Positions 40,096 to 46,994 of a DNA stretch of 64,000 nucleotides are shown here, piece after piece. How positions within the stretch are numbered: position 1 is the stretch's first letter; every line of letters starts with the position of its first letter. A program made the position numbers and the translations under genes. Source of the stretch: Nitrospira sp. GTDB taxonomy: Bacteria; Nitrospirota; Nitrospiria; Nitrospirales; Nitrospiraceae. Under the pieces are notes generated by a model. The model saw nothing but the letters and a program-made list of their open reading frames with translations. It did no database searches and had not been told where the DNA came from. The stretch lies in NCBI GenBank assembly GCA_005116835.1, contig SWDM01000011.1, forward strand, positions 1-64,000, given 5' to 3'.

Positions 40096-41229
40096 CTACA
40101 GAATCCTAGTGAGGGTAAGATAGGCGATACAAGCGAGGAGAGCCGATGCCGGCAGCGTCACCACCCAAGCCATGACCATGTTACGCACGGTCTTCCAGCG
40201 CACGTTGTTCCGGCCCTTGAGCAGGCCAATTCCGATAATAGCCGAGCTGCTGATATGAGTGGTCGAGACCGGCAAACCGAGAAAGCCAGAGGCGAAGACC
40301 AAGGATGATGTCGTCAGGTTTGCAGACAGTCCCTCTGCATGATTCATCTTCGTCACCTTCTCTGCAAGAACTTCCGTTACGCGAAGGCCGCCCAGATAGC
40401 TTCCGAGTCCCATCGCAATGGCGATTCCTCCAAAAACGATAAACTGCAATGAGGAACTGGGCCATGCGGTGGTCGTGCTGCCGATTAAGAGGATGGCGAC
40501 GATCTTCGGCGCATCGTTCGTGCCTCGGGCAAACGACGCAAGGCCGCTAGAGATCCAGTGAAATGTATCGAGTCCCATGACCAGCCCCCGCAAACCGGCT
40601 CGGTCGCATTGCGACGGTACCGCCACGATCGGCTGGTTGAAGCTCGTGGTTTGAAAGAGGGTTCTCGTGCCGCCATTCAAGTCGATTGCCACTAATGCAC
40701 GGGAAGCCGGCATTACGCACAAGCAGGCCCCGTCCCACTTTTTCGCCAGTGTGCGAACAGCCGGATGGATGAGTAGAGAGAGTGTCAAGGCGAGGAAGGG
40801 ACTGAGTAACAAGGGAAGGGCAATTTTTTTACCAATTGCGCCCCAGATCAATCCTTCTCCGGAAAAGGCGACCAAGCCGGTGCCGACGATCGCTCCGGTG
40901 AGTGCATGGGTCGTTGAGACAGGGAAGCCGACGCGTGAGGCGAAGAGGATCCACGCCATTGCCCCAATCAGGACGGCCAAGGAAACGGTCGGCCCGATGA
41001 CCGTACCTGGCTGAACAAGGCCATGGCTGAAGGTCTTGACCATTGCGCTTGCAACGAAGGCTGCCATTCCCGCGCCGATCACGGTCCAGACCGTTCCCCA
41101 GGCAATAGCCGATCGATAGTTGGTAACCCCGCTGCCGACTAAGGTCGCGATCGCTTTCGAGACATCATTGGATCCATTGGCAAAGGCGAGAGCGAATGCA
41201 AGTGAGAAGGCGAGCAGAGAGATTTCCAT
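40096..41229 (-). CDS. pit: PiT family inorganic phosphate transporter
   Basis: A 377-residue membrane protein with ten or more helices. The two PiT signature repeats are FANGSNDVSKAIATLVGSG near the N-terminus and FARGTNDAPKIVAIL in the second half. It takes up metal-phosphate with H+ or Na+. ATG 41229 (MEISLLAFSLAFALA) has AAGGG upstream; the frame extended to 41295 reads into the arsS tail and is rejected. It follows arsS by 8 bases, so it is part of the arsenic cluster, where PiT could be the route by which arsenate enters or phosphate is favoured. Confidence 0.88.
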   Translation of the reverse strand: MEISLLAFSLAFALAFANGSNDVSKAIATLVGSGVTNYRSAIAWGTVWTVIGAGMAAFVASAMVKTFSHGLVQPGTVIGPTVSLAVLIGAMAWILFASRVGFPVSTTHALTGAIVGTGLVAFSGEGLIWGAIGKKIALPLLLSPFLALTLSLLIHPAVRTLAKKWDGACLCVMPASRALVAIDLNGGTRTLFQTTSFNQPIVAVPSQCDRAGLRGLVMGLDTFHWISSGLASFARGTNDAPKIVAILLIGSTTTAWPSSSLQFIVFGGIAIAMGLGSYLGGLRVTEVLAEKVTKMNHAEGLSANLTTSSLVFASGFLGLPVSTTHISSSAIIGIGLLKGRNNVRWKTVRNMVMAWVVTLPASALLACIAYLTLTRIL

Positions 41230-41237
41230 TGTAGCCC

Positions 41238-42278
41238 TTAGGAGGTGACGGACCCGCCGCAAGACGAACCGGCACCTGCCGTACAGCCGTAGCAATGGTT
41301 GCGCGTCGTGATTTGACGCTGATTGAGTTGAACCGGATCGAAGTTGCGAATGTGGGTTGGGGCGCCATGGTCCACCGGCAGTTCGAGCATCTGGTTGAAG
41401 TCACAGTCGTAGAGGGTACCGTCCCAACTCACTGAAATGGTGTAGCGGCACATGACACCGGCTGCCGCTACGGGATTGAAGGCGTTAGCCAATCGTTCCA
41501 TATACTGCTCGTAGTTGCCGCTCTCCAGAAGAAACTCAAGAAATCGGCTGATCGGCATGTTGGTGATCGTATAGAGATGGTTGAACTCCACGCCATGGCG
41601 GGTCAAAAGCTCTTTTCGAAACTGTGCTTCGATCGCCTCTTGTTTGGGAGGGAGAAACGCCCCGACTGGATTGCAGACGAGATTCAACGACAACCCAGTG
41701 TCAGGCCGACCGTAGCCGAGCCCATTAAGGAGACGCAACGCCTGAATTGATTTTTCAAAAATGCCGTCGCCTCGCTGCGCATCGGTTTGGCCGGCGCGGT
41801 AATAGGGCAACGAGGCGACGATTTCCACACGATGCCCGGCGAGGAACTCCGCCAAGTCTGCTTGGGACGGGAGGAGCAAGACAGACAAGTTACAGCGATC
41901 CATCACGTGGCGACCCAGTGCCCGGCTCTGCTCAACCAGCCAGCGAAAGTTGGGGTTGAGTTCCGGTGCCCCACCCGTGATATCGACCGTCGGAATATCG
42001 GTCTGAGCGAGGGCGCGTATGCACTGTTCTGCCGTTTCGAGGGACATGCGTTCAGTCCGGTCAGGACCCGCATCGACATGGCAGTGACGACAAGTCTGAT
42101 TGCAGAGCTTGCCGACATTGATCTGAAAGACTGTGATCCCGGTGGCGCGAAGCGGCAGCAGACCGATGTGATCAAGTTGTGCGTCGAAGGGGATGCAGTT
42201 AACGACCTTCCCGAGTATTTTCAATTGCTCCGTTGGGGAGGCGAGAGGATTTTGTTGCCCCAGCAGGGTTAGTGCCAT
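41238..42278 (-). CDS. arsS: arsenosugar biosynthesis radical SAM protein ArsS
   Basis: A 346-residue radical-SAM enzyme proposed to transfer the 5'-deoxyadenosyl group to dimethylarsenite on the way to arsenosugars. The cluster motif is CNQTCRHC in QINVGKLCNQTCRHCHVDAG. The C-terminal DUF3641 part has MCRYTISVSWDGTLYDCDFN and the Cys-rich end NHCYGCTAGAGSSCGG. I preferred ATG 42278 (MALTLLGQQNPLASP, AAGGAG upstream); starts up to 42407 would overlap arsM. It sits 79 bases after arsM and 8 bases before pit. Confidence 0.88.
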   Translation of the reverse strand: MALTLLGQQNPLASPTEQLKILGKVVNCIPFDAQLDHIGLLPLRATGITVFQINVGKLCNQTCRHCHVDAGPDRTERMSLETAEQCIRALAQTDIPTVDITGGAPELNPNFRWLVEQSRALGRHVMDRCNLSVLLLPSQADLAEFLAGHRVEIVASLPYYRAGQTDAQRGDGIFEKSIQALRLLNGLGYGRPDTGLSLNLVCNPVGAFLPPKQEAIEAQFRKELLTRHGVEFNHLYTITNMPISRFLEFLLESGNYEQYMERLANAFNPVAAAGVMCRYTISVSWDGTLYDCDFNQMLELPVDHGAPTHIRNFDPVQLNQRQITTRNHCYGCTAGAGSSCGGSVTS

Positions 42279-42357
42279 AGGCTCCTTGTTCTCAATGCCG
42301 TGGCTGGTGTCAGGTCCGACCACCAAGGCCGCCTGCATGACGCATCGCCGAATAGCA

Positions 42358-43545
42358 TCAACAGCAGCCTCCATTGGGAGAACAGATGACGGCGTCACCG
42401 CTGGCACTTTGGCCCGCGCGGTTGATGATCGCGAAATGAGGGGCGTAGCCGTCGGCTCCTAATACGGCCAGGGTCTTGGAACAGATCTCCAGTGGCTCAC
42501 CGCGGCGATAGATATGGTGATCGTCATCGGCGGCTTCGATGAAGGGTCCGGCGAGCATGGCAAAGTGCCCTTGCCAGGTACATAGAGTGTCTGCCGGATA
42601 GATCGCCGTCCATCGGTCGTCGGCTCGATCCAACCAGAGTGGGCGAGGGGACAGGATAAAGTGAGAAGCCAATGGAACCAGGCTCAACAGGCGTACAGTC
42701 TCTGGCGTGATCGGCTGGGGGATGCCTCGAAGATAGGTCGTGCCCAGTTCATCGACCACTCGGCTGAACGGCCCGCGGAGCGTGGCATAACGGACATCCG
42801 ATAGGGGTGCGCTCGCAGGGAGCTTATATCCCGTCAAGGTGACGGAGAAGAAGTGGATGCCGTCGATCACCTGCCAGGGCGAGGTCTTGATCAGGTGAAT
42901 GCCCAGGAAGCCAGCTCCCACCATCCCTGCAATATAGTCGGTGAGCGTCAACGCCCCAGAGAGGCAGTTGCCCCACTTGTCAGCGTCATGCACCAAATAC
43001 TGCGGAACTGGCTGATCGGCCACGATGTCGGAGATCGTAAATCGTCCACCCGGCTTGGCAACGCGAAACATTTCCCTGAAGACTTTCCGTTTATCCGGCG
43101 CCAGGTTGATCACACAGTTGGAGATGATCAGATCGATGGTGCCGTCGATCACCGGTATTGCGTCCGCCATTCCTTTGCGAAACTCGACATTAGAGGAGGT
43201 ATAACCCAGATTGGCTGCGACGAGTGGGGCGTTCTTCCGGGCGATGGCCAGCATCGTATCAGTCATGTCGATTCCGATGACGTGACCAGTGGGGCCGACG
43301 AGCCGGGAGGCTTCGAAACAATCGATGCCGCCACCTGAACCGATATCCAGCACGGTTTCCCCTAGGGAGACGGTCTTGAGTCCGGCCGGCGTCCCGCAAC
43401 CATACGAAATCTTGAGGACTTCTTCAGGGATGAAAGATTGGAGATCGGCCATGTCGTAACTGGTCGGACAACACATCTGCTCGCCTGTCGATGCGGCCTT
43501 GGCGTAGCGGTCACTGACTTTCTGGGTGATTTCATCAATGGGCAT
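42358..43545 (-). CDS. arsM: arsenite S-adenosylmethionine methyltransferase ArsM
   Basis: A 395-residue enzyme that methylates As(III). The SAM site is TVLDIGSGGGIDCFEAS. Cysteines expected to bind arsenic are visible in GEQMCCPTSYD, LIISNCVINLAPDKR and WGNCLSGALTL. A C-terminal extension of about 140 residues ends in ICSPNGGCC, as in ArsM proteins paired with ArsS. ATG 43545 follows GAGG and begins MPIDEITQKVSDRYAKAAST, the family start; the extension to 43602 is unlikely. It leads the arsM-arsS-pit unit. Confidence 0.88.
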   Translation of the reverse strand: MPIDEITQKVSDRYAKAASTGEQMCCPTSYDMADLQSFIPEEVLKISYGCGTPAGLKTVSLGETVLDIGSGGGIDCFEASRLVGPTGHVIGIDMTDTMLAIARKNAPLVAANLGYTSSNVEFRKGMADAIPVIDGTIDLIISNCVINLAPDKRKVFREMFRVAKPGGRFTISDIVADQPVPQYLVHDADKWGNCLSGALTLTDYIAGMVGAGFLGIHLIKTSPWQVIDGIHFFSVTLTGYKLPASAPLSDVRYATLRGPFSRVVDELGTTYLRGIPQPITPETVRLLSLVPLASHFILSPRPLWLDRADDRWTAIYPADTLCTWQGHFAMLAGPFIEAADDDHHIYRRGEPLEICSKTLAVLGADGYAPHFAIINRAGQSASGDAVICSPNGGCC

Positions 43546-43785
43546 AGCATCCTCATTGGGAAATGAACATATAGATACAGTCCATGTATCAACTCCCTCC
43601 ATAGTACGTCAACTCTGTTTTCCCCAGGTTCCCCGCCACGTATAAGTTGGGGAGCAGGACCACTTGCACGGGCCAAATGGCGTAGTCCAATGGGGAGTCG
43701 CTTGAGCCTGGACTATCTTACAGCCACGAGATGCAAACATGGGATCGCTCTTGGGGTGATCCCTCCCGTGAAGGCCCACTGAGTC

Positions 43786-44970: not shown

Positions 44971-45462
44971 TCAATCAGGCGGCAATTTTTCGGGATCGAT
45001 TTCTAGTAGCTGTAGCCGACCGTTGGCGATGTGCTCGGTCTTGTACAGGCGGTTGCCCAGTTGCATGGTTCCTACAAGGACATTCCCGTTGACGACAAAG
45101 GTAAAGCTTCCCTTCGAAGGTGGCTTGAACGTACCGCGGATGATGGCACTATCGTTGCTGCGGGAGACGGTCGATGTGATATCTAACTCGAGGTGAGCGC
45201 CATCAAAGAGCTCAATAGCAATCCTGGGATGGGGCCTGGCCCCGGCATCCTTCAATATGATCAGGAGCGGGAGATCGAGAGCAATTGCCTGATCGCGAAG
45301 CACCCAAGGCCTTTGTGGCGTAGCAGATCGATCGGCGGATGGAGGGGTAATGACTGTCTGCCATAAGCTCTTCGGCGTCGAACGTTCATCGGCCCAAGCA
45401 ATCTGACCGACGACACCGATCAGCAATGCAGTGAGGATCATATAGCAGAATCGATTGACCAC
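44971..45462 (-). CDS. free-standing secreted propeptide-like protein
   Basis: A 163-residue exported protein with a signal peptide ending QIAWA-DE near residue 24. Residues 52-163 align with the propeptide of the metalloprotease encoded just upstream: both contain VGT-(M/I)-L-x-x-x-RLYK, then a stretch ending (L)IEID-x-x-x-LPPD. There is no catalytic domain. Protease propeptides fold or block their enzymes, so this may be an inhibitor or a folding helper acting in trans; that is inference. TATAAT at 45504-45509 on the minus strand may be its own promoter. The gap to the protease gene is 116 bases. Confidence 0.7.
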   Translation of the reverse strand: MVNRFCYMILTALLIGVVGQIAWADERSTPKSLWQTVITPPSADRSATPQRPWVLRDQAIALDLPLLIILKDAGARPHPRIAIELFDGAHLELDITSTVSRSNDSAIIRGTFKPPSKGSFTFVVNGNVLVGTMQLGNRLYKTEHIANGRLQLLEIDPEKLPPD

Positions 45463-45578
45463 AGATTCGTTTCCATATTAAGGATTCGAGAGGAATGGGC
45501 TCCATTATATAGAGGCGTGCGGCGTGGCGCGATCATGAAATGCTGAAGCGGAGTTGATCGTTGCTGAGCCATTGCCGT

Positions 45579-46994
45579 TCAAGGGGAAATAGTCCGAAGG
45601 TTTGCCGGGACTGTGGGCGGCGTTGCATTCGCTGTTCCTGTGCGCCATGCGGAGACGATCAGGCGTACCTCATTCATGGAGCGCGCGTTGTCTGCGGAGT
45701 TCGCCGGATTGATGGCGTGATCGATACCGAGAGGACGGCCATTGTAGAGGAGTCGTGGATTGGAGAAATATTTCACGCGTGGACATGATGTCGGGCAGTT
45801 ATAGGCCATGATCGTGCGAAATTTTCCGATTTCATCACGATACCCATAGGAGTAAGAAAAGACGCCCGTTCCCCCTGTGGTTCGATCGTGTGCGTTGCCC
45901 ATGTTATGTCCCAATTCATGGGCGAGAGTATCGTTCGCGAGGCAATCTCGCGCTGTGACGCTGAACGCATAGCTGGCGAAGCCGGCACGCGGCCCGTTCG
46001 TCATCACGTACGCGATGCCGCATGAGTTGCCGCCGTTGTCCACGATCAATGCGACGAGATCAGCTCTGTGCTGGTCTCTCAATTGATGGACTTGATCCAT
46101 GATCCCGTCGGTAGCGCTACGCAAGCGGGTGAGATCGGTGTCCATGGCGCCCGATTCAGAATAGGACACCTCGGCTGTATGGACAAGACGGAGTTGCATC
46201 GCGATCTGGCTGTTACTATAGGCTTGATTGGCCGAATCGACCGCTAATGTGATCAACGCTTCCATCGCCGCCTGGCCGCCTTCCTGGGTCTTTGCCGCTG
46301 ATGTGTAGACGACTAACAGGTCGACGATGGTATCACCAGCTGCTGCAGCCGTCGTATCGGTCTGTTGTGAGGTTCCTTCTGTGGGAGGGACCGCAATGGG
46401 ATCATCGTCGGTGACGACGATGGGATGGTGATCCGGAGGTAAGGCAGCTTCGTCTATTTCTATGAGACGGTGAAGATTGCCTCCGGTCGCCTCGATTTTG
46501 TATAGGCGTTGGTTCGATAGAATCGTGCCGACCATGGTCGTGCCGTGAGCCGCCAGAGTGACATCGCTCCCTGCTTCTCCTCGCAGACGCCCGCGCCAGA
46601 CCTTCGTCTGTTCGGGATAATTGCGGGGCTGGTCAAGGTCAAGCGTTCGAGGATCGGCATCGAAGAGATTCAATGTCACGTCGGTTTGAGCCTCAGTTCG
46701 AGGGCGACTCATGACATCCAGTGCTGCGGGATTGAGAGTCATAGTGCGCTGTCGCCGCACCCATCGTTTGAGTATCTGGGGCTCGGGCAGCGCTCGGGCG
46801 ATGGCAGGAGGCCTGGCGGTTGAGGGTTCTGCGAAGAGCGGTATCTGGGATGGTGTCGATGCGGACAGTACGACAGAGGGAGTGCCGAGTACTGTGATGA
46901 CAAGACAAAGGATTCTCCCACTGGAGCAAATGGAGGAAAATTGGCGTCCCATATCACTTCTCGATGCTTCTGGAGTGAGCTTAGTCGAACCCAT
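45579..46994 (-). CDS. secreted M12B (reprolysin-like) zinc metalloprotease
   Basis: A 471-residue exported protease. ATG 46994 has AAGGGGG 5 bases upstream. Order: basic N-terminus and signal helix (ILCLVITVLGTPSVVLSAS), propeptide at about residues 70-190, and a catalytic domain from about 222 with HELGHNMGNAHD at 359-370 (His359, Glu360, His363, His369) and the Met-turn TIMAY at 394-398. It hydrolyses proteins outside the cytoplasm. It ends TPPTVPANLRTISP, which looks like the first strand of a fibronectin III module cut short, so the C-terminus may be truncated. Confidence 0.85.
   Translation of the reverse strand: MGSTKLTPEASRSDMGRQFSSICSSGRILCLVITVLGTPSVVLSASTPSQIPLFAEPSTARPPAIARALPEPQILKRWVRRQRTMTLNPAALDVMSRPRTEAQTDVTLNLFDADPRTLDLDQPRNYPEQTKVWRGRLRGEAGSDVTLAAHGTTMVGTILSNQRLYKIEATGGNLHRLIEIDEAALPPDHHPIVVTDDDPIAVPPTEGTSQQTDTTAAAAGDTIVDLLVVYTSAAKTQEGGQAAMEALITLAVDSANQAYSNSQIAMQLRLVHTAEVSYSESGAMDTDLTRLRSATDGIMDQVHQLRDQHRADLVALIVDNGGNSCGIAYVMTNGPRAGFASYAFSVTARDCLANDTLAHELGHNMGNAHDRTTGGTGVFSYSYGYRDEIGKFRTIMAYNCPTSCPRVKYFSNPRLLYNGRPLGIDHAINPANSADNARSMNEVRLIVSAWRTGTANATPPTVPANLRTISP

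Follow-up and report, generated by a model that had tools for sequence, protein, structure and literature searches.

A free-standing M12B prodomain encoded next to a secreted M12B metalloprotease in Nitrospira

Why should a bacterium that encodes a secreted metalloprotease with its own propeptide keep, directly behind that gene, a second gene whose product resembles the propeptide and nothing more? The question is raised by a locus in the Nitrospira contig analysed here (the window, as we call the whole stretch of 64,000 nucleotides). The initial annotation took the small protein for a duplicated propeptide that might act as a trans-acting inhibitor, a folding helper or an immunity-like factor, and it proposed a profile search against M12B propeptides and a survey of gene neighbourhoods as ways to check this.

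Both open reading frames lie on the minus strand, with the protease gene upstream and the gene for the small protein following after 116 nt (Table 1). The protease begins with a signal peptide, which is followed by a prodomain whose end reads LPPD-HHP, by a linker and finally by the M12B catalytic domain. Its match to the Pfam model Reprolysin_4 reaches 90 bits against a cut-off of 22 (E 2e-25), and residues H359, E360, G362, H363 and H369 are invariant among the 75 proteases compared. With its zinc motif, Met-turn, Pfam score and metzincin fold, this product is an M12B/adamalysin-like protease. The motif HELGHNMGNAH and the Met-turn IMAY are confined to the protease; the small protein has neither of them, nor any significant Pfam match, in keeping with the earlier description of it as lacking a catalytic domain. 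None of the curated Pfam or NCBIfam models searched allows it to be assigned to a family, and a plasmid search with it returned no match. Judged from the sequence, the small protein is likely exported.

Table 1. Features of the protease-prodomain locus, in window coordinates.
Feature	Position	Strand	Basis
Free prodomain protein, 163 aa (GTG start; stop codon within the range)	44971..45462	-	Open reading frame, homology, AlphaFold, fold match
Putative cleavable signal peptide of the free prodomain (cleavage between ...GQIAWA and DERS)	45391..45462	-	By eye from the sequence
Asp163, final residue of the free prodomain, at the cis switch column	44974..44976	-	Alignment
Intergenic stretch, 116 nt	45463..45578	-	TATAAT at 45509-45504, TCATGATCGCG block upstream of TATAAT
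Secreted M12B (adamalysin-like) metalloprotease, 471 aa zymogen	45579..46994	-	Pfam Reprolysin_4/5 over cut-offs; AlphaFold; CpaA fold match
Cis prodomain of the protease, ~residues 72-188	46431..46781	-	Match to the free prodomain; two-domain match to ADAM17/profragilysin zymogens
Asp188 in LPPD-HHP, proposed zinc-switch residue	46431..46433	-	Alignment column with other-phylum prodomains
Zinc-binding motif HELGHNMGNAH, residues 359-369	45888..45920	-	Sequence; invariance in relatives
Catalytic domain, ~residues 222-453	45636..46331	-	Pfam and Mep72 model matches; predicted secondary structure

BLASTP aligns the small protein with the protease over 159 amino acids at 26% identity (E = 1e-13), and a Smith-Waterman comparison with the signal peptides removed scores 132, where 2000 shuffles gave a mean of 32 (sd 4.8, maximum 59), hence z = 21. 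The alignment runs collinearly from PP..PWV to LPPD, is free of gaps over the last 120 residues and covers residues 61-188 of the protease, that is, the entire prodomain; the small protein ends where the prodomain ends. The resemblance to the upstream propeptide pointed out in the initial annotation is thus real, and the range given for it, residues 80-190, was nearly right, except that the match begins about 20 residues earlier. In profile-profile comparisons the free protein matches the cis prodomains of Nitrospira or of other phyla at 99.7-99.8% (E ~1e-26), while 19 neighbouring gene families used as controls reached 4.3% at most, so the profile comparison that had been proposed confirms the homology to M12B prodomains. 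A profile of the 75 proteases, in turn, detects the free copies in all 36 genomes tested, with E from 1e-12 to 1e-19 and at the prodomain positions. By its sequence, its fold and its ending at the switch position, the small protein is a free-standing M12B prodomain.

The place where the free prodomain ends deserves attention. Of the 72 prodomains aligned from other phyla, 21 have Cys at the column of Asp163, 21 have Glu, 19 have Asp and 11 have some other residue, and the cysteines occur in the contexts LPPCG and FPECG; we take this column to be the place of the ADAM cysteine switch. All 76 free copies of the family end exactly at this column, 63 of them with Asp and 13 with Glu, and in all of them a gap-free tail of nine residues follows a conserved Glu. 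Astacins and fragilysin are known to use an aspartate in this role (see PMC9629494). The simplest reading of the alignments is that the C-terminal acid of the free prodomain would act as a zinc ligand. Among the bacterial M12B proteases of many phyla (L145-L224), any of Cys, Asp and Glu can stand at the switch position of the prodomain, as if the chemistry of the zymogen switch had been exchanged within a single family.

AlphaFold predicts the free prodomain to be a confident beta domain, with a core pLDDT of ~97. Its best match in the PDB by far is CpaB (Foldseek probability 1.00, E 5e-3), and VIA-align superimposes the two with a Z of 12.2 over 109 residues at an rmsd of 3.0. The next matches are the prodomains of ADAM17 (Z 7.5) and profragilysin-3 (Z 6.6), and a Z under 8 would be weak if standing alone. 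The whole protease is modelled with a pLDDT of 87. Its catalytic domain has its best fold match in CpaA (6o38_A, Z 26.8), with snake-venom enzymes matching as well, and the model of prodomain plus catalytic domain matches the ADAM17 and profragilysin zymogens with a Z of ~20 over 290 residues at an rmsd of ~4; this two-domain match predicts a docking of the cis prodomain like that in the two zymogens. Searches of PDB sequences with the free protein or the prodomain profile gave nothing relevant, and CpaB was reached only by comparing folds and by way of the BamI profile. The window proteins share with the cis prodomains of ADAM17 and profragilysin-3 the fold and the place of the switch residue; they differ in that the ADAM and fragilysin zymogens hold the prodomain within the enzyme chain, whereas here an extra copy is made as a separate protein, and in that the switch is acidic rather than the cysteine of the ADAMs.

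CpaA carries Ig-like repeats in front; in the window protease this place is taken by a prodomain, which belongs to the family of the partner protein. The structure of the CpaA-CpaB complex of Acinetobacter has been solved (PDB 6o38). In this complex the C-terminal tail of CpaB enters and plugs the catalytic site of CpaA (PDB 6o38; PMC4713064, PMC7542363), and CpaB is required for the stability and type II secretion of CpaA (PMC4713064; PMC7542363). The window resembles this system in having a small partner gene directly downstream of an adamalysin-like protease, and the best fold matches of both proteins lead to it. CpaB is held by an N-terminal membrane anchor, whereas the free prodomain has a likely cleavable signal peptide, with cleavage read from the sequence between AWA and D. 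The curated CpaB model NF033512 matches neither the window protein nor 36 family members; the fold alone does.

A second metzincin with an adjoining small partner is Mep72 of Pseudomonas, whose neighbour BamI binds to it and alleviates the toxicity of Mep72 in E. coli (PMC4334185). Mep72, unlike the window protease, has no cis prodomain, and BamI-type proteins, unlike the free prodomain, have a membrane anchor or a lipobox and a long linker, and extend beyond the switch position. The BamI model NF052435 (cut-off 180 bits) leaves the window protein unmatched to E 10 and 36 family members unmatched to E 1. The loci used for the comparison came from Pseudomonadales genomes in which Mep72 scores above its curated cut-off (NF052434) and the neighbour is identified by NF052435, with PA2782 of P. 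aeruginosa left out. In nearly all of these genomes the BamI neighbour of Mep72 matches the prodomain profile, with E from 4e-6 to 0.2. The C-terminal domain of the BamI family matches cis prodomains at 96.4% (profile-profile, P 1e-9; controls <= 2.5%), and the BamI profile reaches CpaB with an E of 4.5e-5; a direct profile comparison of BamI with the free prodomains was not significant, and the link passes through the cis prodomains. This suggests that CpaB and BamI are detached M12B prodomains too, a relation of which we found no statement in the open-access literature. In some Pseudomonadales genomes (L246, L247, L249, L250 and L252) up to six Mep72 matches were seen, many with an adjoining BamI-like gene of their own.

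The initial annotation knew of no described bacterial pair of such a kind, but described pairs exist: small metzincin partners encoded next door are already known in CpaA-CpaB and Mep72-BamI. Free propeptide-like inhibitors are also found further afield. Spi of Streptococcus pyogenes is a propeptide analogue whose gene adjoins that of the protease SpeB (PMC2873492), and a propeptide-like inhibitor is known for SUB1 of Plasmodium (PMC6993865), but these belong to unrelated cysteine and serine protease families and folds and offer an analogy only.

The best explanation of the locus, and one that we consider reasonably probable, is that the free prodomain acts in trans, binding the mature protease and holding it in check. 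The free gene would have come from the prodomain of the protease itself, copied once, long ago, in the Nitrospira lineage, and its product would be exported and fold as the same beta domain. It would probably dock on the catalytic domain, as cis prodomains and CpaB do, and would place its C-terminal Asp or Glu in the catalytic zinc site. The free prodomain would then be a second, re-usable catch, an inhibitor and secretion escort in one, for an enzyme whose cis prodomain was cut off before it left the cell. The binding, the zinc ligation, the inhibition and the cellular location are what we infer here. Since a cis prodomain is already part of the protease, it is not obvious why a second one should be needed. 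The same fact bears on a different reading, by which the free prodomain would be purely a chaperone for secretion or folding, without meaningful inhibition, as the lipase foldases are. Such a role would agree with the dependence of CpaA on CpaB for stability and type II secretion (PMC4713064; PMC7542363), and GspD-like secretins are encoded in the same genome (279 bits, under the curated cut-off); however, folding should already be served by the cis prodomain, and the conserved, exact acidic C-terminus indicates contact with the active site, which makes a pure chaperone quite improbable.

A strong M12B protease is present in 37 of the 147 family genomes, and in 35 of these 37 it is followed immediately, on the same strand, by the free gene, the gap between the two having a median of 113 nt. 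The pairs occupy four distinct genomic neighbourhoods, so general synteny does not explain the pairing. The sole intact protease without a partner among the 37, that of L139, is one of the points against a restraining prodomain. L140 was also considered as a protease without a partner and was rejected, since its protease is truncated and joined in frame to the methyltransferase that comes next; at this place (L140:4026-6257) the truncated M12B protease runs into a downstream arsenite-methyltransferase-like gene and the free prodomain gene is gone, through deletion or as an assembly artefact. A second collection was drawn from a scan of GTDB species genomes, from which the 80 best M12B loci, spread over many phyla, were kept. 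The pair is present in all nine Nitrospira loci of this set, including that of N. moscoviensis (L153), and a cis prodomain is present in 84 of the 87 protease frames. The survey of neighbourhoods therefore finds the pair retained in both collections. Further downstream of the pair in the window (40096-43602, minus strand) are genes that appear to encode an arsenite-methyltransferase-like protein, a radical SAM protein of the arsenosugar type and a phosphate-permease-like protein, an arrangement conserved in the genus.

The history of the free gene is more complicated than that of the pair. When cis and free prodomains are placed in one tree, all the Nitrospira sequences cluster together (SH-aLRT 98), and within this cluster all the free prodomains in turn make up a single clade (SH-aLRT 98), split into types A and B; free copies nested in this way fit the view that the cis prodomain was duplicated just once, within the Nitrospira lineage. 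The type B free prodomains found are all paired (6/6). Among the 72 of type A, 30 are paired and 42 are orphans, and the two states have changed into each other seven times on the best tree, four times if only changes forced by well-supported branches are counted. Orphans occupy the syntenic position in which the pairs are found. L075 and L125, for example, share 91% identical DNA on both flanks, and exactly the 1.6 kb protease is absent from L075, with the free gene kept. No protease remnants were found in the orphan loci. The orphan genes are intact and under purifying selection, with dN/dS of 0.06-0.53; the median is 0.24 in orphans against 0.12 in paired genes, as uncorrected values for sets whose dS ranges differ. 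In total, 36 genomes have a free prodomain without a linked protease; four of them have an unlinked M12B-like protease, and in 32 of the 36 a protease profile search detected no M12B catalytic domain. Since these 32 genomes keep the free gene, a strict immunity function, as considered in the initial annotation, is weakened, and of the roles named there a trans-acting inhibitor or a folding helper is to be preferred, given the analogy to CpaB and BamI.

As the orphans show, the free prodomain has, in part of the family, either another target or another function. They can be taken further, to mean that the free prodomain has an independent function, in which it binds some other target, be it a different secreted protease of its own cell or foreign M12B proteases, and lies where it does because this is the old duplication site. 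The conservation of the orphans under purifying selection argues against a dedicated inhibitor, the decay of which would be expected. Type A is also more widely spread than the protease, with its 42 orphans intact and in the same syntenic place, and the loss in L075 took the protease and nothing else. We nevertheless regard an independent function as possible but rather unlikely, because 35 of the 37 proteases still stand beside a free prodomain in four different contexts, type B occurs only in pairs, the fold and the gene order agree with CpaA-CpaB, and the unlinked M12B-like protease of four orphan genomes is a candidate target. The higher dN/dS of some orphan clades, up to ~0.5, might also be taken as the mark of a relic, a duplicated prodomain without present function that was retained by chance; with 76 of 76 copies intact, dN/dS well below 1, invariant residues and a gap-free end, this is hardly credible.

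Free prodomains are not confined to Nitrospira. In three Chloroflexota genomes (L214, L282 and L283) the gene immediately upstream of a protease with a cis prodomain of its own encodes a lipoprotein-like free prodomain. In L282 and L283 this free prodomain stops close to the switch position (LPGGEG and YPGGEG), and that of L214 groups apart from the Nitrospira copies in the prodomain tree. From these pairs and the placement of L214, free prodomains appear to have arisen more than once. A much broader view would make detached M12B prodomains recurrent, independently evolved trans-acting protease regulators, in Nitrospira, in Chloroflexota and in BamI/CpaB, and would see in the free prodomain of protease-less genomes a general safeguard against other M12B proteases, foreign ones included; taken as a whole, we think this view unlikely to be correct.

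The combination of a cis and a trans prodomain in one system seems to be new. New here, too, are the recognition of the small partners as probable detached M12B prodomains, the C-terminus that falls precisely on the switch residue, and the wide occurrence of orphans. For CpaB and BamI, this offers an origin and a shared, testable mechanism, an acidic or a cysteine switch. Systems such as that of N. moscoviensis have the same domain both fused and free, and the orphan free prodomains raise the question of what they bind.

Finally, the DNA between the two genes has features of its own. In the window, a TCATGATCGCG block and a TATAAT box (45504-45535, minus strand) lie 5' of the free gene, and both are conserved among pairs from the genus, as well as in some orphans. 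A TATAAT-like element precedes the free gene in many genomes, a further point for a function independent of the protease. A generic promoter scan found nothing, and a separate promoter for the free gene is only suggested by the sequence. A plain operon was considered for the type A pairs and is doubtful, as there is either a TATAAT-like element or a hairpin within the 113 nt between the genes. The hairpin is seen in the pairs of genus g6, for example at L125:5902-5928, where AGGGAGGCCCGG and CCGGTCCTCCCT enclose a 3-nt loop between the protease and the free prodomain; it shows paired changes among relatives, is without a T run, and could possibly be a terminator or a processing site.
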